A stretch of DNA of 64,000 bases, taken from contig NZ_DATCTU010000044.1 in the NCBI RefSeq assembly GCF_036567765.1, positions 1 through 64,000 of the forward strand. The letters run 5' to 3'. The stretch's first letter is position 1. Each line of letters begins with the position of its first letter. Both the position numbers and the translations under genes were made by a program. Shown one piece after another: positions 20,018-49,843 of this stretch. The notes under the pieces were generated by a model. That model had not been told where the DNA came from. It worked only from the letters and a program-made list of their open reading frames with translations, and made no database searches. Source of the DNA: Pseudobacteroides sp. Its GTDB lineage: Bacteria; Bacillota; Clostridia; Acetivibrionales; DSM-2933.

Positions 20018-22885
20018 CTAGTTTATGCTACTTCCCCATGCTGCAGCGTTGCCGTTTCTTGTCAATACACTAAACGTCATCACAAACTTTTTGAGACCGG
20101 TGTCCCACTGTTCAACTAATACTCCTGTATAATCAACCCCACCGATGCTTAATCCTATACCATTATAACCATTAAGCTGCCATTTTCCATTTGCACTTCC
20201 TGTAACAGTGCCGTCTTTATTTAAGGATATTTTAACAGAGTTTTTCACAGAGGCACTAATATCTTTTCCGTGATTTACATAAGCATAATCCCCGCTGATT
20301 TCATCCAAAGAGTACCTTCCGATAGTTTCTCCCCCATAACGATGAGGTGCAGATACAGGCCATCCGTCCTCGTTTATAAACATTTGATGCACTCTGACCT
20401 GGTGCATTTCTCCTTGTCCCGGAAAACGTGTATGGAATATCAAATAATATTTGTTTGCAGCTGCATCGTAATATACTGAATTATGCCCTGGCGAAACATA
20501 TCCTGTGCCACTTTCAGCAAAGCGGAAATTACCCATAAGCTTAACACCATAAGGCTCAATAGCCTTATCATCAAATGTAGTGCCTGCAGGGCCACGGCAG
20601 TCCGTCATATTGTTTCCTGCAGCATCGACAAAGGGTCCGTCAGGATTTTTTGAGCGTGCAACCCTTATATTATAACCACCAGCAGCATCTAGTCCACCGA
20701 AGCTAAGGAATAGGTAATAATAATCAGTTTCCGGGCTGTATAGCATGCTTGGCCCTTCAATCCTGCTGTGATTTGCTCCTAGAAGCTTCTTTCCATAGCC
20801 TTGACCGGCAATGGGCTTTCCTGTTGCAGGGTCCATTTTCAAAATGTATATTCCTCCGGAATAGGAGCCATATACCATCCACAGGTTTCCGTTTTTATCA
20901 AAGAATACATCCGGGTCAACCGTATTAGGATGCTTTGTGGCATCGTAGACAGTTCCATCCTCGCTTCGCTCCCCCCACATGCCGGATTTCAATAATATAC
21001 CCTGGTTTTTATACGGGCCAGTTATGCTGTCTGAAACGGCTAAGCCCAGCGTAGATCTTGGCGAATCGCCCTTACACAAGCAGTAATACATATAATATTT
21101 GCCGTCTTTAAGCTGTATTATGTCTCCTGCCCACATTGTATCGGTTTGTGCCCAGTCAAAGGATTCTTTAAGCTCAGCATACACATTCGGTATTAAAGGA
21201 TTGGTGTTGCTTACACTTGAAGATACCTGCTGCCACTGCATCAAATCATCGGTCCTTGCAGAAGCAAGATGTGATCCTATAACATAATAGGTACCATTAG
21301 TTTTTATTACCGAAGGATCATGCACCGACACATCCTTAAATACGGGTATGGATTGTGCAGTGGGCGTAGGTGTTGAAACGTTTACTACCATATTAAATTT
21401 CAAGGCAACCAGTATGACATCGCTCATGTTTATGGCTCCATCATTATTGAGGTCACATTTTTTATTATAATTGGTCCCTGATACGATAGCATTAAAATGT
21501 GATGCTATTAATATAATATCCGCCATGTTAACAACTTTGTCCCCATTGATATCTTCCGGAACAGGGTTTACAGCTGAAACCACAGGCGTAGCAGTTGTTA
21601 CCGCTTTTGTCGGTGTAAGTGTCGACGTTTTTGTAGGTGTGGGTGTAGGTGTTACAGCCTCTGTGGGCGTACACGTTGGAGTTTTTGTTGGTGTAGGTGT
21701 AGACGTTGGAGTTGAAGCTTTTGTTGGTGTAATTACTCTTGTGGGACTTGGAGTATTTGAAGCACCTCCTGCCCCCCTCACAAGAGCTTTTGCTATTTCA
21801 GGATAATGCCATGAAAGGGCAGTCCTGTTTAGCAAACCATATGAATCTGATTTTTTGGCTTCGGAATACCCGTTATCCCACCAAACAGGCGTAATCCCTC
21901 TTGCCCTTGTTTCTTTGACAAAAAACTCAGCATGTGCTATTCTGGCAGCCTCGTTGCTTTTGTTTATTGTACCGAATTCACCAATTACTACAGCTCTTCC
22001 GTTTTTAACAAATCTGTTATACAGTACATCGAATTCGCCTGCAAGAGAAGACTTATCGCTTGCAGTCCCCCAGCTTGCAGTTCCGTTTACATCCATGGCA
22101 AAATAGTATGGCGAATAGTTATGTATTGATATAATAATTCTATTGTCATTATTGGGAATAACCAGGTCGTTCAGTGCTGCATCTATTGCCGATGCCGCAT
22201 GAGCCGGTATCATGATATGCCTGGATGCATTATTGCCTCCTGTACCCCTTATAGTATTGACGGCTGCCAAATTAAAGCTGTTTATCACTTGTCGGTTCTC
22301 AGCTGTTCCGCCCGACCATTCGTTTGGTGAACCCTCTACCCTTGGTTCATTCATAGTTTCAAATATCAAATAATCACTATAGTTTTTAAAGCGGTTTGCT
22401 ACCTGCTCCCATATTTTTGTGAGCTGTGCTTTGCTTTGTGCTTCGTTGGCATATGTGGGTTTAAGCCATGAATTCTCATGATGGAAGTTAACTATGGCAT
22501 ACATATTGTTGTCCAAGGCATAATTTACCACCTCTTCTACCCTGTTTAGCCATGCTTGATCAATTGTGTAGCTTGGAGCAGGGCCAACATGTCCTCCCCA
22601 GGTAACGGGAAATCTTACAGTATTAAATCCCATTTCCTTTACCTTATCAATCATTTCCTTTGTGGTCTTAGGATTACCCCAGCTTGTTTCCCCGCCGGTA
22701 GCATCAAGGGTATTGCCCAAATTCCATCCAAGCCTCATATCCTTTACAAGCTCCAGTGACGAAATGTTCCTCATTCCTGTAAATGCAGTTGACGCATCCG
22801 CGGGAATACTTCCTAGAATCGCAACAAAAAGAAATACCATAGTTAGTAGAATTGCTTGTCCCCTAAGAAAAAATTTTTTAATCAC
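20018..22885 (-). CDS. Bifunctional cellulosomal GH5-dockerin-GH43 enzyme
   Basis: A 955-residue secreted enzyme. Signal peptide 1-31. GH5 domain at about 40-375 (subfamily 4-like), with acid/base Glu in [10 protein letters not shown] near 178 and nucleophile Glu in VVIGEFGT near 302. A Thr/Pro-rich linker of about 65 residues follows, then a type II-like dockerin at about 442-500 with loops [12 protein letters not shown] and [14 protein letters not shown]43 follows at about 515-830 with [16 protein letters not shown] and RIEGPSML (the three acidic residues), and a C-terminal beta domain to 955. The GH5 half should cut beta-1,4-glucan or xyloglucan and the GH43 half arabinan side chains. The dockerin lies between the catalytic domains instead of at an end. 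Confidence 0.93.
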
Positions 22886-22967: not shown

Positions 22968-24863
22968 TCAGTTATAATCAGCTGAAGTTTTTCCAAAATG
23001 CTTGGCTATGATAACAATATCCGACATGTTAATGCTGTTATCCTGATTCAAATCACGGGATAAAATGTATTTAGGATCTGAACTTGTGGCGTTAAAGCAC
23101 TTGCCTATCTCAATAACATCCTTCATGTTAATCGCACCGTCTGAAATCCCATCTACAGGTATATCACCAGCCCACATGTAAATTGGAGCATTCACGGCGG
23201 AAACCTGAGTATCCTTTGTGACAGTCAAGCTGCCAATTTCCCTGGACAAATATCCTGCCTTGGATACCTTTAATGAATAGCTCGAACCTGCCGACACGCC
23301 ACTTATCTCAAAGTAGCCTGTGTTATCTGTTTGTGCAGAAAGCTGTGTTCCCACAATTTGAATATTAAATCCGGATTTTGATACTGTACTGGTCAAATCA
23401 TGAGCTATAAAACCCGATACCTTATAACCGTTTGCAGGAGTTGGCTTTGTAGTTGGGGTTGAGGACGGAGGATTGGATACTATAGCTCCTCCGTAGTATT
23501 TGGTAACCGCTGCCATTGCACCTACAAATCCTGCATTATAGTCTATTGCAACCTCAGTGTACTGGAACTGGTTGACATCATCGATGTATTTGTCGGTAGC
23601 ATCAGGACCTCCAACTAAGGCACCTGTCAGCAAATGCTTCGCCGGTTTTGAGTTTTCACCTCCTGCATATGTATAGCCGTTGGCAGCTCTGTGATGAGGA
23701 TGAGTAGGGTATTTAGAGCCAAAACCGATAACATATGACATGTTTGCCGGATTGTCGCCAAGTATATAGTCGATTTGGGACTTAGCCAATGTTTTAAGGG
23801 ATTCATCCTTTGACTGTTTATAATACAGCATAGCCAAAAGTGATGCTGCCGAAGCATATCTTAAAGCTCCCCAGTTGTCAAGGTATTTCATTCCTCCAGG
23901 GGATGTTTTGATGCCAGTCTTCCAGTAGTTCAAGTTGTATTCAACTGCATTTTTATAAGTTTCATTCCCGGTAAGCTCGGATAATTTTGTAAAAACAGCG
24001 AGGTACATATCATCCCAGCATATTGTCCACTTATGTTGGAGAGGGTCTTCCTGCTTTCTGTTTCTGTTTTTGATAAAATTTTGAGAATCCTGAAGGTATT
24101 TTTCATCCTTCGTTATCTGGTAAAGCCAAGCTGCAGCAAATGCCAGGTCATCATAATAGCTGTTGGACATATAAAATGACTGTCCGCTCCCATATCCAGG
24201 GTTGGATGTTCCCATTACATAAAGTTCCTTTGCTGCCTTGAGACATTTGTCTGCATATACAGAGTCAGTGCCCTTATAGTTGAGATACATTATAGTAAGT
24301 GCCGCAGATGTCATTCCAAGAACATCAGATGCGGTATGGCTTGCATCCGCAACATAATATGTAGGCCTGTTATATGTCTGTTTCTCAGGAGCATCCCAGT
24401 ATTTATGGTCCTCCTCCCCTTCTCCCAACTGATAGTAAAATGTAATGGCATCAGGATGGCTTTTTAAGAAATAGTCGGTAAAATATTTAAGTGTTGAAAG
24501 CATTTTCTGGGTATTTCCGGTTGAGTCAAATACATCTCTGTATTCAAAAAGAGACCACCCCAGTATTGCAGCTGCATACCCCTGAGGCAATCCAAATTTG
24601 ACATGATCACCGGCGTCATGGAATCCCCCGGTAAGATCCACGCCTACATCCTTACCGTCTTCAATATGGCAGGCACCTCTCCATCCGCTGAAATGATTGT
24701 CACCCGCCACATCCTTACCGCATTTGTTAGCATCAAAAAACAAAATGGAATCCTTAAATGCCGCAGCATAATCAAAGCCTCCGGCTGCTGAAAAAGACAC
24801 AGACGGAACAATAAAACCCGTTAGTACCGATACAATAAGTAAACAACTCAAAATCTTTCTCAT
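22968..24863 (-). CDS. GH9 endoglucanase with X-module and type II dockerin
   Basis: A 631-residue secreted cellulase. Signal peptide 1-26. GH9 domain at about 28-455 with DAGDHVKFG near 83 (catalytic base Asp), PHHRAANG near 391 and TEVAIDYNAGF near 435 (acid Glu). No CBM3c or Ig domain is attached. After a Pro/Thr linker comes an X-module at about 477-565 (YKVSGFIAHDL ... GYFEISGV ... APIYMWAGD) and a dockerin to 631. This X-dockerin pair is the arrangement best known at the C-terminus of scaffoldins such as CipA. The first calcium loop is irregular (DGISDGAINMKD, Ile at the third ligand position). It could attach directly to an anchoring cohesin. Confidence 0.93.
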   Translation of the reverse strand: MRKILSCLLIVSVLTGFIVPSVSFSAAGGFDYAAAFKDSILFFDANKCGKDVAGDNHFSGWRGACHIEDGKDVGVDLTGGFHDAGDHVKFGLPQGYAAAILGWSLFEYRDVFDSTGNTQKMLSTLKYFTDYFLKSHPDAITFYYQLGEGEEDHKYWDAPEKQTYNRPTYYVADASHTASDVLGMTSAALTIMYLNYKGTDSVYADKCLKAAKELYVMGTSNPGYGSGQSFYMSNSYYDDLAFAAAWLYQITKDEKYLQDSQNFIKNRNRKQEDPLQHKWTICWDDMYLAVFTKLSELTGNETYKNAVEYNLNYWKTGIKTSPGGMKYLDNWGALRYASAASLLAMLYYKQSKDESLKTLAKSQIDYILGDNPANMSYVIGFGSKYPTHPHHRAANGYTYAGGENSKPAKHLLTGALVGGPDATDKYIDDVNQFQYTEVAIDYNAGFVGAMAAVTKYYGGAIVSNPPSSTPTTKPTPANGYKVSGFIAHDLTSTVSKSGFNIQIVGTQLSAQTDNTGYFEISGVSAGSSYSLKVSKAGYLSREIGSLTVTKDTQVSAVNAPIYMWAGDIPVDGISDGAINMKDVIEIGKCFNATSSDPKYILSRDLNQDNSINMSDIVIIAKHFGKTSADYN

Positions 24864-26517: not shown

Positions 26518-26638
26518 AAATCAATGCCATGACTAAAGTCACTTCTATTTAATAACATATTTTGCTAAAATAGAATATGTGTTTTGCAATGTAAAACAAC
26601 AAAACAAGTTAAAATCTACCACTTAGGGAGGAATGTAC

Positions 26639-28918
26639 ATGAAAAAGAGAAACCGATCAAAAAAAGGTTTTACTTTACTTACAATCATTGCGTCAGTAAT
26701 TTGCACTTCCATTTTATTTTTGCCTGTCAAATCGTTTGCTTCAAATGTAATAACGTTTCCGGACAGCCGTCTTGAGTCAGTTATAAGAGAACAAATCAAT
26801 AAGCCCTCAGGAAATATTCTTGATACTGATGTTGCAGCAATTACTTCACTATTTGCAAGTTTAAAAGGAATCTCCAACCTAGAAGGCATACAGTATCTTA
26901 AAGGATTAAAAACCGCATTGCTATCCAATAACCAAATAAGAGACATAAGCCCGTTGAGTACACTGACAGCTCTAACTGTTTTGGATCTTGGCAATAACAA
27001 AATAGGAAATATCGATGCCATCAGAAACCTAACCAACCTCAAATTTCTGACATTGGATAACAACCACCCAGCATCTCTTGAGCCTATTACAGGCCTTGCA
27101 CAGCTCAAAATACTAAGCCTTAACAATACCGGCTTAATTAATATCGGCATTATAAGCCGTCTTTCCTCCACATTATCTTTGACATCCCTATCCCTTGGAG
27201 GAAATGGCGTTGCCGATATATCTCCCCTAACTCCTTGCATAAATCTTACTATGCTAGACCTTGGTAACAACAAAATCAGCGATTTGTCATTTTTAGCCAA
27301 ATTTATAAAACTCAGAACATTAACTCTTAATGACAATCTCATAAGTGATATCAACCCTATTAAAAGCATTACAGGCCTTACAAATCTGAATCTTGCAAAC
27401 AATCGGATAACCTCACTCATATCAATTAAAAATCTTTCAGGCTTAACCCAACTCAACATCAGTGGTAATACTATTGATATTAATGAAGTTTCAGGATTCA
27501 CTTCTCTTACAACGCTTTATATGAATAACTGCGGTGTTAGTAATATAAGTGCTCTGACAGGGCTAAGTCCAGTTGATCTGCAGCTTGATAACAATCAGAT
27601 TAGTGATTTGGGCCCTCTAAACGGAAAAACAATGTTACAGCTTCTTTCACTAAATAACAATCAAATCAGTGACTTAAGTCCATTGTCAAACTTAAGAAGC
27701 TTAATCTCTTTAAACCTTAGAAATAACCTGATTACAGACATAAAGCCTTTATCTTCGCTTACACTCCTCGACTCATTGTACATAAACAGCAACCAAATTT
27801 CAGATATAAGTGCATTTCATTCATTACCGACACTTAAATATGTTGGTATCGGCCAAAATCCAATAAGCAATATTGAGCAAATCACCAAGTATAACAGCAT
27901 TACTGACCTTGAACTGGACAATCTGGGGATTAGCGACATTTCATTTTTATCAAATATGCCCCAGCTGGCATCTATAGTGTTGAGCAGCAATCCCATCAAT
28001 AATTTCAGCCCGATTAGCAGTTTTACCAACCTTCAGGCTATAGGTCTTAATGATACCGGCATAATTGACCTTACAGTACTTTCTAATTTACCAAATATAA
28101 TTGCTCTTGAAATAAAGAATAACGGAATTACTGATATAAGGCCGTTAAAGAGCTTGAAAAATCTGATTTATCTATATCTTTCATGCAATAAAATAACTGA
28201 TTACAGACCGATTGAAAACGTATACAGCCAGCTTTTATACAAAGATTTTGAATTTGAAATACTTCCTGTTTTAGGTTGTTTGGAAGTACCTATAAAGGAT
28301 AGCACAATCAGCGGAACTGTTAATCTGTCAGGCTATTTCTTGGATCCAGAGAACGTATCCAAAATCGAGATATTGGTAGACGGCAAAAAAGTAGGGGAAG
28401 CAGCTTATGGCAGTTTAAGGGAAGATATTGCAAAATTATACCCCAAATATTATAACTCCAACTCGGGATTTAGCTATATGCTAAACACAGCAAATCTTTC
28501 CACAGGAAGCCATACCATTACAATCCGCGAGACTTCAACAAATGGTACTATTACAACACTAGCACCTGCAAATATTATGGTTTCAAGACTGCTGCCAAAG
28601 GGCTATATTGACAAGCCAACTTCGGGTCAAACTATAAGAGGGACCTTCAGGGTTTCAGGCTGGTTTTTAGACATAAGCGGTGTTGATAAAATTGAAGTAC
28701 TTGTTGACGGAGTTGTTATAGGTACTGCTGTCTATGGCCTGTCAAGACCGGATGTTGCTTCTGTCTATCCACAGCACAACAATTCACGAAGCGGTTATGA
28801 TTATTACCTAAATACCAATTCGATTTCAACAGGTAAGCATACAATTACAGTAAGGGAAAAGGGCATAAATGGGGTAACCACTACATTATCTTCAAAAACT
28901 GTCTATGTAACAAGATAA
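26639..28918 (+). CDS. Secreted leucine-rich-repeat protein with two C-terminal Ig-like repeats
   Basis: A 759-residue extracellular protein. Signal peptide at about 1-33. About 20 internalin-type LRRs of 21-22 residues occupy 45-535 (consensus LTxLxxLxLxNNxISDISPL). Two homologous repeats of about 95 residues at 555-655 and 660-755 follow (IEILVDGKKVGEAAYG and IEVLVDGVVIGTAVYG; SGYFLD and SGWFLD). No dockerin, SLH or sortase motif is present, so it is probably released or bound by its C-terminal repeats. I chose ATG 26639 because GGGAGG at 26626-26631 lies 7 nt away; the ATG at 26633 is too close. A binding role for polysaccharide or surface protein is inferred. Confidence 0.88.
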   Translation: MKKRNRSKKGFTLLTIIASVICTSILFLPVKSFASNVITFPDSRLESVIREQINKPSGNILDTDVAAITSLFASLKGISNLEGIQYLKGLKTALLSNNQIRDISPLSTLTALTVLDLGNNKIGNIDAIRNLTNLKFLTLDNNHPASLEPITGLAQLKILSLNNTGLINIGIISRLSSTLSLTSLSLGGNGVADISPLTPCINLTMLDLGNNKISDLSFLAKFIKLRTLTLNDNLISDINPIKSITGLTNLNLANNRITSLISIKNLSGLTQLNISGNTIDINEVSGFTSLTTLYMNNCGVSNISALTGLSPVDLQLDNNQISDLGPLNGKTMLQLLSLNNNQISDLSPLSNLRSLISLNLRNNLITDIKPLSSLTLLDSLYINSNQISDISAFHSLPTLKYVGIGQNPISNIEQITKYNSITDLELDNLGISDISFLSNMPQLASIVLSSNPINNFSPISSFTNLQAIGLNDTGIIDLTVLSNLPNIIALEIKNNGITDIRPLKSLKNLIYLYLSCNKITDYRPIENVYSQLLYKDFEFEILPVLGCLEVPIKDSTISGTVNLSGYFLDPENVSKIEILVDGKKVGEAAYGSLREDIAKLYPKYYNSNSGFSYMLNTANLSTGSHTITIRETSTNGTITTLAPANIMVSRLLPKGYIDKPTSGQTIRGTFRVSGWFLDISGVDKIEVLVDGVVIGTAVYGLSRPDVASVYPQHNNSRSGYDYYLNTNSISTGKHTITVREKGINGVTTTLSSKTVYVTR

Positions 28919-30515: not shown

Positions 30516-30557
30516 AAAAGTCCCGCAACCTTAATCAATAGTGGCTGCGGGACTTTA
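30516..30557 (-). terminator. Terminator of the BspA-like/cohesin operon
   Basis: On the minus strand, AAAGTCCCGCAGCC pairs with GGTTGCGGGACTTT across a 12-nt loop, followed by T. It lies 65 nt after the stop codon of the BspA-like gene. Confidence 0.85.
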
Positions 30558-30621: not shown

Positions 30622-33600
30622 CTAAATCCGGGATATTTCAACCCTGTACTGAGGGTTATTAATGGGCTGCCATATCCATGACGAATCGTTTCTTCCGCCA
30701 AAACCATATGCTGATGGTAATATTGTGATTTTAAAATTACCGGATGCTTCTTTAAATACATCTGTACCAAATCTAGGCTCTTTCCCCATAAATGCTGCTG
30801 TAGCAAGCTTAGTACACCCTTCAAAGGCCCTTGAATCTACAAATGATACACCGGCAGGAATTGTTATCTCCAAAAGGGAGCTACACCTCTGGAATGCACC
30901 ATAGCCTATAGTGGTAAGACTTCCTGGAAGGGATATACCTGTAAGTCTACTGCAATCTGAAAACGTGAAATCCTCTATTGCTGTTATATGGTTTGGAAGG
31001 GTTATATCAATTAAGCTTATACAGCTTGCAAATGCGTACTTTTTAATTGTCCTTACATTGTCAGGTACCATAACGCTTAATAACTTGCCGCAGCCCTGGA
31101 AGGTAGACTCTTCTATAACTGTAATACCCTGGGGTATTGTAATCGATCCTATACCGCTGCAGCCCTGGAAGGCACCCTTGCCGATCTTCGTCACTCCATT
31201 TGGTATTGCTATTTTTGTAAGTCCGCCGCAGCCTGAGAATGCATAGTCTCCTATGGCGGTCACAACTTCCGGTATCGTTAATGTTGAAAGGCCGCTGCAG
31301 CCCTGGAAGGTGAAACTTCCTATTGCCGATACCTTTGCGGGAATTGCAAGAGCCGTAAGCTTACTACAACCTGAGAATGCATAATCCCCTATGGCAATTA
31401 CACTCTGAGGAATTCTTATACTTAAAATTCCATAACACCCTGAGAAAGTATAATCGTCTATTGTTGTAACACCTTCAGGTATAACCAGGCTCAGTAATGA
31501 ACTGCAATCTCTAAAAGCACCCTTACCTATTTCGCATACGCTTTCCGGTATAGTTATACGGTTTATCCTGGTGCAGCTCTGGAATGCTCCTTCCCCTATA
31601 CGGCTTACTCCTGCAGGAATCATGAGGCTGAACAGGTCATAGGATCCTGAGAATGCAAAATCTCCAATTCCGGTCACTTTTACTCCGCCTATTGTGTCAG
31701 GAATTATAATATTTCCACCCGAACCTATGTATTTTATGATTGTGCCTGTTTCAGTGTTGAATTCAAAGTCCTTTTCGCCAGCTACTTTAGTTGACGGAGT
31801 AGGTGTTGGCGTATTTGTCGGTGCTGAGGTTGCCGTAGGTGTAGGAGTTATATCTTCCGCACCCTTTAAAACCACCCTGTAGGATGATCTGTCGTTTATA
31901 GTCCACGTCCAAGCTACTTCATTATTATATGGCTCAGGTTTGCCAAAACCCTTTGCACCAGGCAAAACTACAATTTTAAAACCTGTTTGAAACCCTTCAA
32001 AAGCATAATCACCAAAGTAGGATGGTTGATTTCCACAAAATTCTACTGAAAGTAGTTTGCTGCAGCCTTCAAATGCTCTGGCTTCTATGGTTGTTACTTT
32101 GCCTGGAATTTTAACTGCTGCAAGTCCCGTACATCTGAAGAAAGCACCATATCCAATAATTTTCAGATTTTCGGGTAAAGTTATGTTATACAAGTTGCTA
32201 CAGGTTGAAAATGCATATTCCCCTATTCTTACAACCCCTGCAGGGAACCTTAAATTATTAAGACTTATACAGCCTGCAAATGTATAATCTTCTATTGATA
32301 ATAGATTTTGGGGAAGAGTTATGGAAGTCAATGACCTACATCCGTTAAAAGCGTTCTTACCGATATCGTTAACCCCGTTTGGTATTGTGATATAGGCTAA
32401 GCTGCTGCAGTTGGAGAACATCCCCTCTCCTATGCTTGTTATACCCTGTGGTATTTTTATACTATTAAGACCGCTGCAGCCTGCAAATGCACTTTTCCCA
32501 ATATCAGTCACACCTTCCGGAACTGCTAAACCTGTCAAAGAGCTGCAGTCAAAAAATGCGTTGTTTCCAATACTCGTAACAGTGTATGGGATTGTTATGC
32601 CAGCAAGGGATCTGCATCCATAAAATGTATTGTCTCCTATGCTTGCGACACCAGTTGGAATTATCATGCCTTTTAATAGGCTGCAGCCTGCAAAAGCATA
32701 TCTCCCTATACTAGTGGCACTTTTGGGAACAGTTATATCAGTAACATAGCCGCAACCTGAAAATGCGTAATCTCCTATAAATGCCACACCCTCAGGAATT
32801 ATTACACGGCTGAGACGATTGCAGTTGTAGAATGAAGTATTGTCTATCCCCTTTACCGGCACTTCGTCTATTATGCAGGGAATCCTTACATCTCCGCCAG
32901 GCCCTATATACTTTATAATTGTTCCTGTAGCAGCATCAAACTCAAAGTCATTTTCATCTGCTAAAGGTATGTAGTTTTTACTTGGAAAAACATTAATATA
33001 TTGTAGCAAAAATCTCTTAAGCACTGCATAATCAATTGAGTTGATCTTCCCGTCTCCGTTTAAGTCGGCCAGCCTCAATTCATAACCCGATGAAAGAGGA
33101 AAAGTATTCTCAAGTCTAAAAATATACTTCTTTAATAATTCCCTGTCGCTTGCATCGATTAATTGGTCCCCGTTTAAATCTCCAAGCATATAGTCAATTC
33201 TGAAGTCCTTTTCCTGAAGGTTGTCATAATACGGTTTTACAGGTGAAAAATCCTGAATGTCATTGTTGGCTAATTTTAAGCTACTCAGCTTTTTAAGCCT
33301 GTATAACGGTGTTATATAACTTAACCCATTGCCTGACAAATCCAGCTTCTCAAGGCTTTGAAAGTGCTGTATACCTTCGATATCGGTTATCCCTGCATTA
33401 GAGCAATTGAGCTCTTTTATACCCGCAACATCGCCATAAACAATATCCCCATAGCTTTTACCTATGTTTTCGCGTATACGCTTTTCAAAATTATAATCCT
33501 TAAAATCTATTACCTCAGTCAACGAAATTGCATTGCCGTTCAAATCTAAAGCAGTTCCCTCTGCAAAGACAGCTGACGCAATGGAGACACCTCCTACTAC

Positions 33601-33651
33601 CAAAACCGCCATATATATTATCAAAAGTTTTTTAATTAAACTATTAATCAT
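30622..33651 (-). CDS. BspA-like LRR_5 protein with internal type I dockerin
   Basis: A 1009-residue secreted protein. Signal peptide 1-31. A short canonical LRR block lies at about 60-120. A type I dockerin at about 153-220 has loops DLNGDQLIDASD and DLNGDGKINSID, with LLKKY and LKRF helices typical of type I. Two arrays of BspA-type LRR repeats (GDYAFSGCSxLTxxxIPxGVTxIG pattern) lie at about 235-585 and 628-990, separated by a Thr/Pro linker. Each array starts with a similar DFEF ... TGTIIKYIG segment. Such arrays act in adhesion and protein or carbohydrate binding in other species. It begins 15 nt after the type I cohesin gene, so the two are co-transcribed and their modules can pair. Confidence 0.92.
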   Translation of the reverse strand: MINSLIKKLLIIYMAVLVVGGVSIASAVFAEGTALDLNGNAISLTEVIDFKDYNFEKRIRENIGKSYGDIVYGDVAGIKELNCSNAGITDIEGIQHFQSLEKLDLSGNGLSYITPLYRLKKLSSLKLANNDIQDFSPVKPYYDNLQEKDFRIDYMLGDLNGDQLIDASDRELLKKYIFRLENTFPLSSGYELRLADLNGDGKINSIDYAVLKRFLLQYINVFPSKNYIPLADENDFEFDAATGTIIKYIGPGGDVRIPCIIDEVPVKGIDNTSFYNCNRLSRVIIPEGVAFIGDYAFSGCGYVTDITVPKSATSIGRYAFAGCSLLKGMIIPTGVASIGDNTFYGCRSLAGITIPYTVTSIGNNAFFDCSSLTGLAVPEGVTDIGKSAFAGCSGLNSIKIPQGITSIGEGMFSNCSSLAYITIPNGVNDIGKNAFNGCRSLTSITLPQNLLSIEDYTFAGCISLNNLRFPAGVVRIGEYAFSTCSNLYNITLPENLKIIGYGAFFRCTGLAAVKIPGKVTTIEARAFEGCSKLLSVEFCGNQPSYFGDYAFEGFQTGFKIVVLPGAKGFGKPEPYNNEVAWTWTINDRSSYRVVLKGAEDITPTPTATSAPTNTPTPTPSTKVAGEKDFEFNTETGTIIKYIGSGGNIIIPDTIGGVKVTGIGDFAFSGSYDLFSLMIPAGVSRIGEGAFQSCTRINRITIPESVCEIGKGAFRDCSSLLSLVIPEGVTTIDDYTFSGCYGILSIRIPQSVIAIGDYAFSGCSKLTALAIPAKVSAIGSFTFQGCSGLSTLTIPEVVTAIGDYAFSGCGGLTKIAIPNGVTKIGKGAFQGCSGIGSITIPQGITVIEESTFQGCGKLLSVMVPDNVRTIKKYAFASCISLIDITLPNHITAIEDFTFSDCSRLTGISLPGSLTTIGYGAFQRCSSLLEITIPAGVSFVDSRAFEGCTKLATAAFMGKEPRFGTDVFKEASGNFKITILPSAYGFGGRNDSSWIWQPINNPQYRVEISRI

Positions 33652-33666
33652 TTTTCTCCCCCTGTC

Positions 33667-34668
33667 CTATATGCTGTAATCAGCAGGCACCCTATTGAAG
33701 TGCTTTGCTATAGCTACTATATCCGCCATGTTTATCCGACCGTCTTTATTTATATCGCATTTACCGCTGTATCCGCTGTCTGACTTGGAGAAATTGAATA
33801 CTTTACTTATCTCAATTATGTCTTTCATATTAATAGCCCCATCATTATTTATGTCCCCAATCCACATTTTGATGGGAGCTGCCACTGAGGATACTTCTGT
33901 AAAGCCATTAGGGCTTGTGAGGCTTATGCCATTTATATTCCTGGACAAGAAGCCGTCCTTGGTTATAGCTAGAGTACAATTTGTTATGCCGTTTTCTATG
34001 TACAATTGAAAGAATCCGTTTTCATCAGTCACGGTATTGATTCCTGTACCTGCTACTCCAACACTGAAGTCGGATTTCAGGGCAGAAGACGAATCGCCCA
34101 TTGCCAAGTCAGGCGTTATATAGCCCGACACCTTGTACCCCTGCTTTTCAATGACATTCAAATTTCCTTCTGTTATGCCTGCCGGTACAGCCTCGAGATA
34201 TGTACTTCCAAAGGTGCATACACCTACAGTTCTTATTCTATTAAAACCTATAGGTGCGGTTTGCTTTATTAGAAACTTTATGTTAACAAATACTCCATCT
34301 GACTTGATAGCTTCATTCCCCAATCCTGTTTCATCACAGTAAAGGAACTTTATTATTCCGCTATTTGGGTCTACAATTTTGTCAAATGTTATGCTTGCAT
34401 TTCTGGCTATAGGCCCTGGTATAATGCCATCCTCTAAAACCTTCATTATACTGGCATCATATTTTATCGTAAAATCACAGTTGTTGATTCCTGCTGCAGG
34501 AACATTTTTAAAGCTTACTGGTACTATAACCGTTTCTCCCTTGCATCCTTCAACAGAGCCTATTTCCATCTCAAACCCAGCAGCTTGAACTGTTGAATTA
34601 AAAAGAAACATTGATAGCAGCATTGTAACTGCCAGTAGAACTGATGTGCATACTGACTTTCTTCTCAT
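33667..34668 (-). CDS. Single type I cohesin plus X-module and type II dockerin (adaptor scaffoldin)
   Basis: A 333-residue secreted adaptor. Signal peptide 1-29. Type I cohesin at about 31-172: FEMEIGSVEGCKGETVIVPV, GINNCDFTIKYD and KSDGVFVNIKF follow the CipA-type cohesin pattern. X-module at about 178-270 (GYKVSGYITPDL, GFFQLYIENG, APIKMWIGD). Type II dockerin at about 273-333 with loops [12 protein letters not shown] and DINKDGRINMAD. The dockerin would attach it to a type II cohesin, while the cohesin captures one type I dockerin partner. The next gene in the operon encodes exactly such a partner. No CBM or second cohesin is present. Confidence 0.9.
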   Translation of the reverse strand: MRRKSVCTSVLLAVTMLLSMFLFNSTVQAAGFEMEIGSVEGCKGETVIVPVSFKNVPAAGINNCDFTIKYDASIMKVLEDGIIPGPIARNASITFDKIVDPNSGIIKFLYCDETGLGNEAIKSDGVFVNIKFLIKQTAPIGFNRIRTVGVCTFGSTYLEAVPAGITEGNLNVIEKQGYKVSGYITPDLAMGDSSSALKSDFSVGVAGTGINTVTDENGFFQLYIENGITNCTLAITKDGFLSRNINGISLTSPNGFTEVSSVAAPIKMWIGDINNDGAINMKDIIEISKVFNFSKSDSGYSGKCDINKDGRINMADIVAIAKHFNRVPADYSI

Positions 34669-34821: not shown

Positions 34822-35415
34822 TTAGTCATGCCTTAAATAGTCTTCAATTTTCTCCCCGTCAATATAAAGATTTTCTACGACTGTATCACCATTATGTATT
34901 TTTACAGTTATATAGACTTCCTTTCTTTCCGACAGGCTTTTATTGTATGCTTCCTCAGCCGGTTTAGCCTTGTTTTCCGCCATATAATACCTCTCAAAGG
35001 GTATCTTTATATAAACCGCCCTGGGAACCAATTTTGTTGTTTTACTTTCTTCTCCTGCCCTTGTTTCATAATCAAAATACAAAATCTTTGTCTTTATATA
35101 ATTTCTATGTTCAGGTATTTGTGACGACACCCCTGTAAATTTTGCAAAACCGTCAATATCATTTTCAACAGTTGCATATACTGTTTGGTTCAGCGAATAA
35201 TTATCATTACTACTTACAGGCACTCTGTTATCACTAAAATAAATGCTTAAGTAATTCCCTCTGAAATTATCAACAGGGTCGATGGGCTTGATGCGAAATT
35301 TAAAAACCTGGCCCTTATTTAATACATTCTCCCTGCTCATTATCATTTGAGCTGGAAATGCCAGCTGTGCAAGGGAAAGTATAATAAACAATATAATCTT
35401 AATATGCTTTTTCAT
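34822..35415 (-). CDS. GDYXXLXY-family protein
   Basis: A 197-residue protein with a single N-terminal hydrophobic segment and the family signature in the form RGNYLSIYF near residue 54. The rest is a predicted extracytoplasmic beta-rich domain. Members are usually encoded next to DUF2157 membrane proteins, as here, and have no assigned activity. Its start overlaps the end of the DUF2157 gene by 17 nt, so translation is coupled. Confidence 0.85.
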   Translation of the reverse strand: MKKHIKIILFIILSLAQLAFPAQMIMSRENVLNKGQVFKFRIKPIDPVDNFRGNYLSIYFSDNRVPVSSNDNYSLNQTVYATVENDIDGFAKFTGVSSQIPEHRNYIKTKILYFDYETRAGEESKTTKLVPRAVYIKIPFERYYMAENKAKPAEEAYNKSLSERKEVYITVKIHNGDTVVENLYIDGEKIEDYLRHD

Positions 35416-42628: not shown

Positions 42629-45259
42629 TTATACAACCAGATCCATCCGGTCTTTTTTAGAAAGTTCCTCCGCCGCATTCTTTACAGCGTCTTCAATCCT
42701 CTCGCAGGTCTGAATTACCTTAATCCCTACTTTTTCAAGCTCTTTTGACGGATTGTAACCTATTCTCATTGTGATAACAGCGTTGCAATCAGAAATAGTC
42801 TTTATAATTGTTTGAATTTTATCATCATGCTCACAGTCCTCGCTGCCCGTGCAGTACTTCTTAATCAAACGCTGTTCAACGAGCTCCAAGCCTGATTCAT
42901 TGTACTTGTAGATATAAAACCCTTCAGATTGGCCGAAATGCTGATCAACAAAGATGTTTGTTTTAGTCGCCACCGCAAAAGTATACATCTTCTTTTTTCC
43001 ACCTTTTATATTTTCACTGCATCCTGTGGAGCATTTGGTATTCATAAACTCCGATGATACGTCTTCATCCAAAGTTCCTATTGCATCTGCCCTGCATTGC
43101 CTGCAGTGGTACATCTGCTTTAGGTGTATATTGCATTTTTTTCTAAGGTCATTAAGCTCCTTGTTACTGGTCATGGGCATATTTTCAAACATGCTTCCTG
43201 CTGCTGGTATGAGAGGCATTATATTGGTCATAAAGGCACCATATTCTTTTACCCTTTCTACTACAGACTCAATGTGATTATCATTTATGCCCTTTATCAT
43301 AACAATATTGACTTTACATACAATTCCTCTAGAGGATAGATATTTGAGACCTGCAAGCTGATTTGCCAGGAGAATTTCTGCTGCTTTTTCACCTGTAAGC
43401 TTAACCCCCATAAAGTTCACTTCCCTGTAAACGAGTGCCCCTACTTTAGGGTCTATGGCGTTTATTGTGATTGTTACGTGAGTTACACCCAGCCTAATTA
43501 TTTCATCTGCATAATACATGAGCATCAGTCCATTGGTGGAAAGGCAAAATGTTATGTCAGGGTCAACAGCTTTTATCATTTCAAGAGATTTCTTAGTATC
43601 GTCAAAATTGGCTAATGCATCTCCTGGTCCTGCAATCCCAATTACTTTTAGATTCTGCACCTTTTGTCTTACATTAAGAAATTTTTCCAGGGCCTCCTCA
43701 GGAGTTAAGACTTTACTGGTTACGCCGGGCCTGCTTTCATTCTGGCAGTCATATTTTCTATTGCAGTAATTGCAGGAAATGTTACATCCCGGTGCAACAG
43801 GCAGATGCATCCTGGCATTCTGACATCCTCCGCTGAAGCATGGATGGGTCGACGTCTTCTCTTCAATAGACAGTCTTTCATTCTTTGCTTCTTCCATTGC
43901 TTCATTACCTTTATAATACTTGTCGTACATACTTCTTCTGTATTTGTTGTATTTATTTTCAATAAGTGTATTTGTAATTTCATCAAGGAGCCTCAGAGTC
44001 CCATTATAGCCGGTTATGACCTGCCTTTGGGCACCTACCCTGTCATGTACGGGGAAACCTACCCTGACTAATGGAATTCCATCTTTTTCTGTAATTACTT
44101 TTCCATCGGAGTTTCCAATAAGTATATTGGCCTTTAGGCTGTTTGCCTTCTCTCTAATAGTGTCAAAATCGGTATCGTCCAATACCACAGGTTTCTCTTC
44201 GTAGGTTTTTGGAGGAACAAGCTGCCCTATAACCTTATTTTGAGATCCTGTTGAAAGCAATACAGGCTTGATACCATTCTCAAAACATAGTTTTCCTAAT
44301 GCATATACCAGCTCAGGCTCACCATAAATGACAGCCTTTCCCTCAGAGTTAAACTTATGTGAATCTATCATTCCGTCTATCAATCTACCCTTTTCCTTCA
44401 GAATCTTATCAGGTACAGGCTTTCCTTTGATTTCAGAAAGGATATTTAAAAACAAATCGGTATTTTCAATTCCAATTGGTAATGGACACCTATAAAACTT
44501 TACCCCCCATTTGTCCAAAAGGTATTGCCCAGGCGACAATTCCTTGCTGATTGTATATCCTATTTCAATACTGGCAGGAGCTCCGGGCATATTCACTATG
44601 TCACTTATTTTTGTCCCTCCAGGAGGAATACGTTTATAATCCCTGCTGTAAGGTGCATCAAGGGTTTCAGACACATCCGGAAACATTGTGTAAGATATCT
44701 TGAATGCTTCAAGTATTTCTTTTATGTTCCTCACATCTCCCGGATTTAGATTACTTACAATTATATTGACTTTGCTATTTGGCTTGCTGTTTTTTGCCAG
44801 TCCTGAAACCATTGCCTTGAGGGCTGAAAAATATCCTTCAAACTGGGTTCCCCCATACCCCGGAGTGGGAACAGGCACTATTTTAAGATTTTTTATCTCT
44901 TCCTCTTCTTTAAATTCCGTTACTATCCTATTTATATCTTCCCCAATTGTTTCTGCAAGGCATGTAGTTGCAACACCGATTATATCCGGGTTATAAACCT
45001 TGATAATGTTTAAAAGGCCCTTTTTCAGGTTGTTCTCTCCGCCATAAACGGTTCCTTCTTCACTTAGTGAGGAAGATCCTATATCAATAGGTTCGTTATA
45101 GTGGCCCGTCATATGCCTTCTTATATAGGTGCTGCAGCCTTGTGATCCGTGAAGCAGGAGGATACTGTTTTCAATTCCCTTAAATGCCAGTGCCGCTCCC
45201 ATAGGCATACACATTTTACAAGGATTCATATTTAAGTTTACAAAGTTTGTGCCCGCCAT
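42629..45259 (-). CDS. nifN-B: NifN-NifB fusion for FeMo-cofactor assembly
   Basis: An 876-residue fusion. Residues 1-440 are the NifN scaffold (NPCKMCMPMGAALAFKG, LLHGSQGCSTYIRRH, TTCLAETIGEDI). Residues 465-876 are NifB: HPCFSGGCQNARMHLPVAPGCNISCNYCNRKYDC gives the radical-SAM CxxxCxxC together with an N-terminal accessory Cys. A C-terminal NifX/NafY-like domain (FAVATKTNIFVDQHFGQ) begins near 762. NifB builds the carbide-containing NifB-co core and NifN with NifE matures it, so the fusion may channel the intermediate. C. pasteurianum has the same fusion. ATG 45259 is favoured over the GTG three codons upstream. Confidence 0.95.
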   Translation of the reverse strand: MAGTNFVNLNMNPCKMCMPMGAALAFKGIENSILLLHGSQGCSTYIRRHMTGHYNEPIDIGSSSLSEEGTVYGGENNLKKGLLNIIKVYNPDIIGVATTCLAETIGEDINRIVTEFKEEEEIKNLKIVPVPTPGYGGTQFEGYFSALKAMVSGLAKNSKPNSKVNIIVSNLNPGDVRNIKEILEAFKISYTMFPDVSETLDAPYSRDYKRIPPGGTKISDIVNMPGAPASIEIGYTISKELSPGQYLLDKWGVKFYRCPLPIGIENTDLFLNILSEIKGKPVPDKILKEKGRLIDGMIDSHKFNSEGKAVIYGEPELVYALGKLCFENGIKPVLLSTGSQNKVIGQLVPPKTYEEKPVVLDDTDFDTIREKANSLKANILIGNSDGKVITEKDGIPLVRVGFPVHDRVGAQRQVITGYNGTLRLLDEITNTLIENKYNKYRRSMYDKYYKGNEAMEEAKNERLSIEEKTSTHPCFSGGCQNARMHLPVAPGCNISCNYCNRKYDCQNESRPGVTSKVLTPEEALEKFLNVRQKVQNLKVIGIAGPGDALANFDDTKKSLEMIKAVDPDITFCLSTNGLMLMYYADEIIRLGVTHVTITINAIDPKVGALVYREVNFMGVKLTGEKAAEILLANQLAGLKYLSSRGIVCKVNIVMIKGINDNHIESVVERVKEYGAFMTNIMPLIPAAGSMFENMPMTSNKELNDLRKKCNIHLKQMYHCRQCRADAIGTLDEDVSSEFMNTKCSTGCSENIKGGKKKMYTFAVATKTNIFVDQHFGQSEGFYIYKYNESGLELVEQRLIKKYCTGSEDCEHDDKIQTIIKTISDCNAVITMRIGYNPSKELEKVGIKVIQTCERIEDAVKNAAEELSKKDRMDLVV

Positions 45260-45287
45260 ATTAATCACCCCAATTCCGTATCAAATG

Positions 45288-48235: not shown

Positions 48236-49831
48236 TTACCTCCCTACATAACTTCCTTCAATCATAGGCTCGGTCTTCCAAGGTGGAGTCACGAATTTCC
48301 ATGAAGGAGTAGTTAATCCCATTGTAATATCTCTTGCAAAATTCACAGCTCCTCTGAACCCTGCATAAGGACCGCTGTAATCATATGAATGAAGCTGCTT
48401 TGAGAAAATTCCTGCTTTATGTGAAATATATTTATCCTTTATACCTGAACAGAATAGATCAGGCTTTAAAATCTTAAGAAGTTCTTCAGTCTCATAGTGG
48501 TTAAGATCATCTATAACAATACTTCCATTAGCCATATCCTTCATCATGCCGGCATAGTAGTTTAAGGATATCTCATCTTTCAGTTTCTCATATCTTTCTT
48601 TTGATAAAGTTATCTTGTAATGCTCCGGATCTGGCTTGACTTCTATACTTTCAATATTTTTGCTGTCACCGTCTTCTTTTATTGTGGGCAGAACTTCTCT
48701 TCCTTCATAATCATCCCTGTGGGCAAATTCATATCCTGCAAGTATTGTCTCAATACCTAAATCCCTTAGCAAATGCTGATAGTGATGTGCTCTGGAGCCC
48801 CCAACAAACAGTGCTGCTGTTTTTCCCTGACAGAGCCTCTTATACTGATCCATTTTTTCGCTTATGTCAGACAGCTCTTCTGCAATTACAGCTTCTGTTC
48901 TAGCTGTCAGATCAGCATCATCAAAGTACTTGGCTATATCCCTTAAGCTCTTTATTGTGCTTTTTACTCCAATAAAGTTAACTTTTATCCAGTCAGTCCC
49001 ATACTTAGTATTTAGCATTTCACCTATATAGTTAATGGAACGATGACATTGTATTACATTAAGGTCAGCCTTGTGGGCACTCTTCAAATCCTCTACAGTC
49101 CCGTCACCTGTCATCATCGAAACAATCTCGTATCCTATTTTCTTAAGTATCCTCTCAAGCTCCCATCCGTCACCGCCTATGTTGTACTCACCCAGAATAT
49201 TCAGCGAATATTTGCCTACAACCTTATCTCCAGTACCGATGATATGCTTTATAAGACCGTTATTTGCAATATGATGCCCACCTGACTGGCTGACGCCCTT
49301 ATAACCTTCGCAGCTAAACGCTAGAACCTTGATTCCGTATTCTTTGGAAGCCCAGTTTGCTACGGCATTTATATCATCACCTATAAGACCTACAGGACAT
49401 GTGGAACATATCATAACGGTTTTTGGCTGGAAGATTTCAACTGCTTCAGTTATTGCTTTTCTTAGCTTTTTCTCTCCTCCAAATACAATATCGCCTTCCT
49501 GCAAATCTGTCGAGAAGCAGTAATTCAAATAATTCTGCTCATCACCTTTGGTTTTCCCCTTGTTTCTTCTGGTGCCCCAGGTATAATACCCGCATCCTAT
49601 GGGACCATGTGTTATAATCAAGGCATCTCTCAAGGGTCCTAAAACAACGCCCTTACAACCCGCATAGCAACACCCTCTATTAGTTATTATTCCTGGAATC
49701 GTTCTTGTATTGGCGGTTATGGTTTGGGGCTCCGGCTTATCTGCATTTCTAAGAAGCACATGCTCTTTACGATTTTTAAAAACACTTGCCGGGTACTGCT
49801 CAATAACTTTATCTATTTTACTTTTCATCAT
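48236..49831 (-). CDS. nifD: Nitrogenase MoFe protein alpha subunit
   Basis: The catalytic subunit that binds FeMo-cofactor, 531 residues. P-cluster region: TNRGCCYAGCKGVVLGP near 52 and ITHGPIGCGYYTWG near 74. The cofactor Cys is in NVIQCHRSINYIG and the cofactor His in KQLHSYDYSGPYAGFRG near 490. An insertion of about 50 residues (around 385-430, GREVLPTIKEDGDSKNIES onward) is the hallmark of C. pasteurianum-type NifD. Two adjacent ATG codons (49831, 49828) follow GGGAGG by 5 and 8 nt and cannot be separated. Mo rather than V or Fe type is supported by the neighbouring nifE, nifN-B, nifV and mod genes. Confidence 0.96.
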   Translation of the reverse strand: MMKSKIDKVIEQYPASVFKNRKEHVLLRNADKPEPQTITANTRTIPGIITNRGCCYAGCKGVVLGPLRDALIITHGPIGCGYYTWGTRRNKGKTKGDEQNYLNYCFSTDLQEGDIVFGGEKKLRKAITEAVEIFQPKTVMICSTCPVGLIGDDINAVANWASKEYGIKVLAFSCEGYKGVSQSGGHHIANNGLIKHIIGTGDKVVGKYSLNILGEYNIGGDGWELERILKKIGYEIVSMMTGDGTVEDLKSAHKADLNVIQCHRSINYIGEMLNTKYGTDWIKVNFIGVKSTIKSLRDIAKYFDDADLTARTEAVIAEELSDISEKMDQYKRLCQGKTAALFVGGSRAHHYQHLLRDLGIETILAGYEFAHRDDYEGREVLPTIKEDGDSKNIESIEVKPDPEHYKITLSKERYEKLKDEISLNYYAGMMKDMANGSIVIDDLNHYETEELLKILKPDLFCSGIKDKYISHKAGIFSKQLHSYDYSGPYAGFRGAVNFARDITMGLTTPSWKFVTPPWKTEPMIEGSYVGR

Positions 49832-49843
49832 GACCACCTCCCA

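Follow-up and report, generated by a model that had tools for sequence, protein, structure and literature searches.

A tandem of a monovalent cohesin adaptor and a leucine-rich repeat dockerin protein conserved in two Pseudobacteroides species: a possible private pair in a cellulosome of reversed types

A type I cohesin followed by an X module and a type II dockerin forms the C-terminal unit of CipA from Acetivibrio thermocellus (structure 3kcp), and a comparable adaptor logic is found in ScaH/L of C. clariflavum, in which three type I cohesins are combined with a type II dockerin (PMC4582956). Non-catalytic leucine-rich repeat (LRR) proteins carried by a dockerin have been described as well, 28 of them in Ruminococcus flavefaciens FD-1 (PMC2930009), and CttA of R. 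flavefaciens, in which two carbohydrate-binding modules (CBM) precede an X-dockerin that is held by the surface cohesin ScaE (PMC5301203), provides a precedent for a non-catalytic dockerin protein in a cellulosome site and for adhesion by means of cohesin and dockerin. In the genus Pseudobacteroides the cohesin types have been found to be reversed, so that the enzymes attach to primary scaffoldins via type II cohesins, and the primary scaffoldins to anchors via type I cohesins (PMC5590126, PMC8063739). According to the published analysis of P. cellulosolvens, this reversal extends throughout the system, and the type I dockerins are all located on primary scaffoldins. Here, we describe two minus-strand genes that look like an exception to both rules, namely a monovalent adaptor scaffoldin (P0001, 33667-34668) and an LRR-dockerin protein (P0002, 30622-33651), which lie in tandem within a stretch of 64,000 nucleotides from a Pseudobacteroides sp. 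(the window; contig NZ_DATCTU010000044.1, positions 1 to 64,000). We see about an even chance that the cohesin of P0001 and the dockerin of P0002 form a private pair, by which P0001 would turn an ordinary enzyme slot into one that is reserved for P0002.

The two genes are separated by 15 nucleotides (33652-33666, minus strand) that contain a G-rich ribosome-binding site, and the coordinates given in a preliminary description, which had been made from the sequence alone, are exact to the base. The source genome is a 5.34-Mb draft of a relative of P. cellulosolvens in the same genus. A census, in which cohesins and dockerins have been counted on stretches of this genome, has returned 51 cohesin and 148 dockerin matches, the latter after the scoring of 150 of the 249 dockerin candidates; in a separate search with the dockerin of P0002 itself as the query, all 54 candidates have been scored. 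Neither this dockerin nor the cohesin of P0001 has a close relative elsewhere in the source genome. Because each connecting module has no second copy in the genome, the two would probably fit one another alone, as far as can be judged from sequence. In P. cellulosolvens the pair has been kept in the same order with a gap of 14 nucleotides, and most of the flanking genes differ. Because order and spacing are preserved in this second species at an identity of 58% for P0001 (ortholog at L077:9963-10961) and of 71% over 1008 residues for P0002 (ortholog at L077:10976-13981), a chance origin of the pair can be regarded as excluded on comparative grounds. Both open reading frames are intact in both species, with all modules conserved throughout. 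The main argument for binding between P0001 and P0002 is that two orphans of matching type adjoin in two species; given several thousand genes in the genome, two such modules would be unlikely to lie side by side by chance. The idea of a dedicated pair, put forward in the preliminary description, has gained from the conserved tandem and from the orphan status of both modules.

P0001 encodes 333 amino acids, which comprise a signal peptide (read from the sequence), a type I cohesin (residues ~32-173), an X60 module (~176-266) and a type II dockerin (~270-327). The Pfam matches are a single cohesin at 33-172 (E 9e-30) and a single dockerin at 271-325, and residues 32-332, with the X module among them, align with crystal structures of the CipA X-DocII unit (3kcp, E 3e-54; also 4u3s and 2b59), which bears out the module order reported before. 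With a single cohesin, a single dockerin, a secretion signal and no catalytic module, the protein is by its layout a monovalent adaptor. Its cohesin (34153-34572, minus strand) represents an orphan lineage of CipA-like character and carries an extra residue at CipA position 89 (in the 'DETGLG' loop), which is absent from all 35 of the anchoring type I cohesins of the genus that have been compared. In the phylogenetic tree it groups with type I, the split from type II being supported at 100/100; together with its ortholog it forms a clade of its own (100/94), which joins the CipA-like primary cohesins (99/96) apart from the 35 anchoring ones. An origin by transfer from one Acetivibrio lineage is unsupported, the cohesin falling outside the sampled lineages. 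The dockerin of P0001 (33694-33858, minus strand), preceded by X60, shows Met10 and Phe20 in both repeats and is indistinct from the bulk of the type II dockerins of the genome. In P. cellulosolvens, Met10 and Phe20 are essential for binding to the type II cohesin of ScaA1, as their mutation abolishes the interaction of DocCel48 with ScaA1 (PMC8063739). From the published text, in which the one further X60 scaffoldin with a name, ScaI, carries a type II cohesin, the P. cellulosolvens ortholog of P0001 is probably ScaT.

P0002 encodes 1009 amino acids, with a signal peptide, an internalin-like N-terminal LRR block (~50-140), a type I dockerin (~153-222) and two BspA-type LRR_5 arrays (~245-540 and ~640-955), between which lies a linker rich in proline and threonine (602-621). 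The Pfam matches consist solely of LRRs and a dockerin (dockerin 156-216, E 1e-13; LRR_5 arrays, E 1e-196), as the earlier reading of a type I dockerin between a short LRR block and two BspA-type arrays had it, and carbohydrate-binding modules of the CttA kind are lacking among them. The arrays are built from tandem 23-residue units (~269-522 and 662-938), as in BspA-like surface proteins with solved homologues (4fs7, 4gt6, and TpLRR 6mlx). The dockerin (32971-33192, minus strand) belongs to type I and is without Met10 and Phe20: repeat 2 reads S-I at positions 10-11 and KR at 17-18, and the drifted repeat 1 reads A-S and KK. The other type I dockerins of the genome are four in number, show the pattern 'SD...YAxMRQ' and are all carried by scaffoldins, so that among the 148 dockerins scored P0002 has the sole other type I dockerin and the sole one off scaffoldins. 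It differs from these at almost all contact positions of the two repeats, with S-D in each repeat being the rule in the genus, and its helices (LLKK/VLKR) depart from the MRQ type. Accordingly, identity to the four S-D dockerins amounts to 31-45%, compared with 73% to the ortholog. Among the dockerins of the Acetivibrio family that have been compared, identities are in the range of 43-58%, with 49-51% for enzyme dockerins of A. thermocellus and the best value of 58% for an LRR-dockerin protein of genome G042.

The surroundings of the pair are those of a cellulosome with reversed polarity. Type II dockerins with Met10 make up nearly all of the 148, and the majority of the type II cohesins found reside on enzyme-integrating scaffoldins (eight on C95, four on C31, several on C36 and at least two on C108). 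By layout and tree, the source genome and P. cellulosolvens share a seven-cohesin ScaE, a three-cohesin ScaS, ScaB, ScaA1, ScaA2, ScaL, ScaM and SLH proteins, where scaffoldin names have been assigned by layout, and ScaB and ScaA1 are present as pieces cut by contig ends. Within this setting, the type I cohesin of P0001 would bind the type I dockerin of P0002, and the X60-linked type II dockerin of P0001 would plug into a type II cohesin; in most cases this would be an enzyme slot of a primary scaffoldin (ScaA, ScaL or ScaM kind), and more rarely a surface-anchored type II cohesin, of which there are few. An enzyme slot would thereby be converted into a slot for one non-catalytic LRR protein. 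Co-transcription of the two genes, this location of the complex and a service of the LRR arrays in adhesion to substrate or cells are presumed in the scheme. The preliminary description had directed the X-dockerin to a type II anchoring cohesin, which corresponds to the A. thermocellus arrangement and is not supported in that form here: as the types are reversed in the genus, such a cohesin would mostly be an enzyme slot. A role of P0002 in adhesion or sensing, likewise suggested before, is a guess by analogy with the BspA-like fold. More tentatively, one may postulate that a private pair of canonical polarity, with a CipA-like cohesin and an Acetivibrio-like dockerin, survives in a genus of reversed types as a slot converter that gives a BspA-like protein the position of an enzyme.

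Several observations weigh against a private pair. The placement of the P0001 cohesin with CipA-type primary cohesins, outside the anchoring cohesins of the genus, is favoured on sequence but not proven, since a tree constrained to hold it among the anchoring cohesins (ScaB/ScaE/ScaS/ScaF) has not been rejected (p-AU 0.37, approximately unbiased test). The X60-linked dockerins of P. cellulosolvens that were assayed bound none of the cohesins offered (PMC5590126), and on a microarray, binding failed for the majority of the dockerins taken from LRR proteins of R. flavefaciens (PMC5301203). A search for the gene pair, as had been proposed earlier, has been positive in P. cellulosolvens and negative in the third species of the genus, which has neither P0001 nor P0002, as well as in the rest of the order (58 genomes); in the same order-wide set, the LRR-dockerin block has been found only in P. 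cellulosolvens (G001) and, in a relative lacking the BspA arrays, in G042. In addition, P. cellulosolvens has at least one further type-I-like dockerin (S-N / S-I), at the end of a kelch-like protein (L124; G001:C1, near 1636169). As this dockerin is located off scaffoldins, the specificity may not be strictly private in that species, and the published restriction of type I dockerins to primary scaffoldins would apparently be broken by L124 as well. The absence from one of three species and the failure of X60-dockerins in vitro would also agree with a fading relic of a canonical-type system, whose modules once bound each other and of which one or both now have little function, and repeat 1 of the P0002 dockerin points in the same direction, having drifted from the canonical Ser-Thr to A-S and, in the ortholog, to S-A. 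Such decay is, however, hard to reconcile with intact reading frames in both species and with modules that are conserved at the identity given above for P0002, and we consider it very improbable.

Two further explanations differ in the binding partners. P0002 might be displayed directly on the cell if the X-dockerin of P0001 preferred surface-anchored type II cohesins, i.e., ScaJ with its SLH modules or small membrane-anchored proteins with a single cohesin. Candidates for such receptors exist in the genome: a type II cohesin is present on an SLH protein (C4:71283, in a frame of 582 amino acids) and on two small proteins, of which C36:55273 has a hydrophobic segment and a basic tail at its end and C4:74395 a membrane segment ahead of an acidic tail. 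ScaJ of P. cellulosolvens binds type II dockerins of enzymes strongly (PMC5590126). These anchored cohesins are few, however, most type II cohesins being those of the enzyme-integrating scaffoldins, and the P0001 dockerin has no features that set it apart from other type II dockerins; direct display is therefore regarded as unlikely. Conversely, P0002 might dock on the ordinary type I cohesins of ScaB, ScaE and ScaF in competition with the primary scaffoldins, which would leave P0001 as a separate branching piece for dockerins of the ScaA type. Its dockerin is of the appropriate type, N37 is common to the type I cohesins and D39 to most of them, and cross-reaction is generally frequent among cohesin-dockerin pairs of the same type. 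The recognition code of P0002 is nevertheless unlike that of the S-D dockerins, the tree places the P0001 cohesin outside the anchoring cohesins, and the genes form a conserved tandem, all of which makes docking of this kind quite improbable. The private pair of P0001 and P0002 remains the reading that we favour.

Compared with the described systems, P0001 shares the module order of the CipA C-terminal unit, and its cohesin groups with CipA-type cohesins in the tree, but it has one cohesin, no CBM and no role as an enzyme hub, and the enzymes of its host genus carry type II dockerins. A similar layout is found in an Acetivibrio adaptor of 316 amino acids (G054, L285:6758-7708; cohesin-X-dockerin), which likewise combines a type I cohesin with an X60-type II dockerin and follows the same adaptor logic; its dockerin is apparently without the second repeat. 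Unlike P0001, the Acetivibrio adaptors that have been inspected have no dockerin-LRR gene alongside. P0002 resembles the LRR-dockerin proteins of R. flavefaciens as well as those of G042 (L198:6988-10107 and L289:4006-5718, one of which shares the LRR-dockerin block at 50% identity), and BspA arrays with a C-terminal dockerin occur in Ruminococcus sp. (L063). In contrast to P0002, CttA bears CBMs and docks without an adaptor through an X-dockerin of its own, and most of the BspA-like relatives seen lack a dockerin; a search of GTDB contigs for close relatives of P0002 has returned generic BspA proteins only, mostly without dockerins among those scanned. Among the relatives compared, neither the layout LRR-dockerin-BspA-BspA nor an LRR-dockerin gene beside a cohesin adaptor has been found outside P. 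cellulosolvens. Adaptors with the layout of P0001 and LRR-dockerin proteins are thus known, and new, as far as the literature shows, are the conserved tandem, its apparent private specificity and its apparent canonical polarity inside a reversed system. The tandem names a specific, previously unrecorded cargo for an adaptor, and it opens to testing the purpose of monovalent adaptors and the question of whether non-enzymatic, adhesin-like cargo belongs to cellulosomes by design. If the reading is true, the cell could equip its cellulose-degrading machinery with a possible adhesin in place of an enzyme, and should the pair prove orthogonal to the remaining system, designer cellulosomes would gain a ready further specificity.

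Downstream of P0002, a strong terminator-like hairpin (30517-30556, minus strand) with a 14-bp stem and a short T run (-24.2 kcal/mol, z -4.2) stands between the pair and the next cohesin gene. A promoter scan has yielded matches modestly above shuffled sequences and has not been used as evidence. P0001 and P0002 share one reading frame, in which one TAG and five codons separate the two (33652-33669). Readthrough of this TAG has been rejected as biology, the gap of 14 nucleotides in P. cellulosolvens being out of frame, and since the shared frame is not conserved there, it is probably accidental. Structure prediction on a 538-residue translation from the window, with TAG as a Q linker and one sequence in the alignment, has given no usable model (predicted local distance difference test, pLDDT, 32; predicted template modelling score, pTM, 0.21). 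Upstream of the P. cellulosolvens pair, a degraded remnant of 41 residues (L077:9805-9927) corresponds to a GDYXXLXY gene of the window (34822-35415), which has decayed in that species.

The gene after the hairpin, P0003 (29125-29997, minus strand; 290 amino acids), was passed over in the preliminary description and encodes a single type II cohesin and a type II dockerin without an X module. Its cohesin is sister to cohesins of the ScaL1/L2 type, and its ortholog in P. cellulosolvens (L077:18036-18920, 76% identity) lies downstream of the pair after two inserted genes. P0003 could be a receptor for the X-dockerin of P0001, and together with the pair it may represent the published scaffoldin 'cluster F'. 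Also near P0002, the gene at 26633-28918 (plus strand) encodes an internalin-like LRR protein that contains two Big_7 Ig-like domains and lacks a dockerin. Elsewhere in the window, a cellulosomal bifunctional enzyme of the layout GH5-dockerin-GH43 with an internal dockerin (20018-22885, minus strand) adjoins a GH9-X60-like-dockerin gene (22968-24863). Finally, an open reading frame of 879 amino acids (42629-45268, minus strand) with nitrogenase component 1-type, radical SAM and FeMo-cofactor domains and a further nitrogenase-type gene (48236-49837) point to a nitrogenase cluster in a cellulosome producer.

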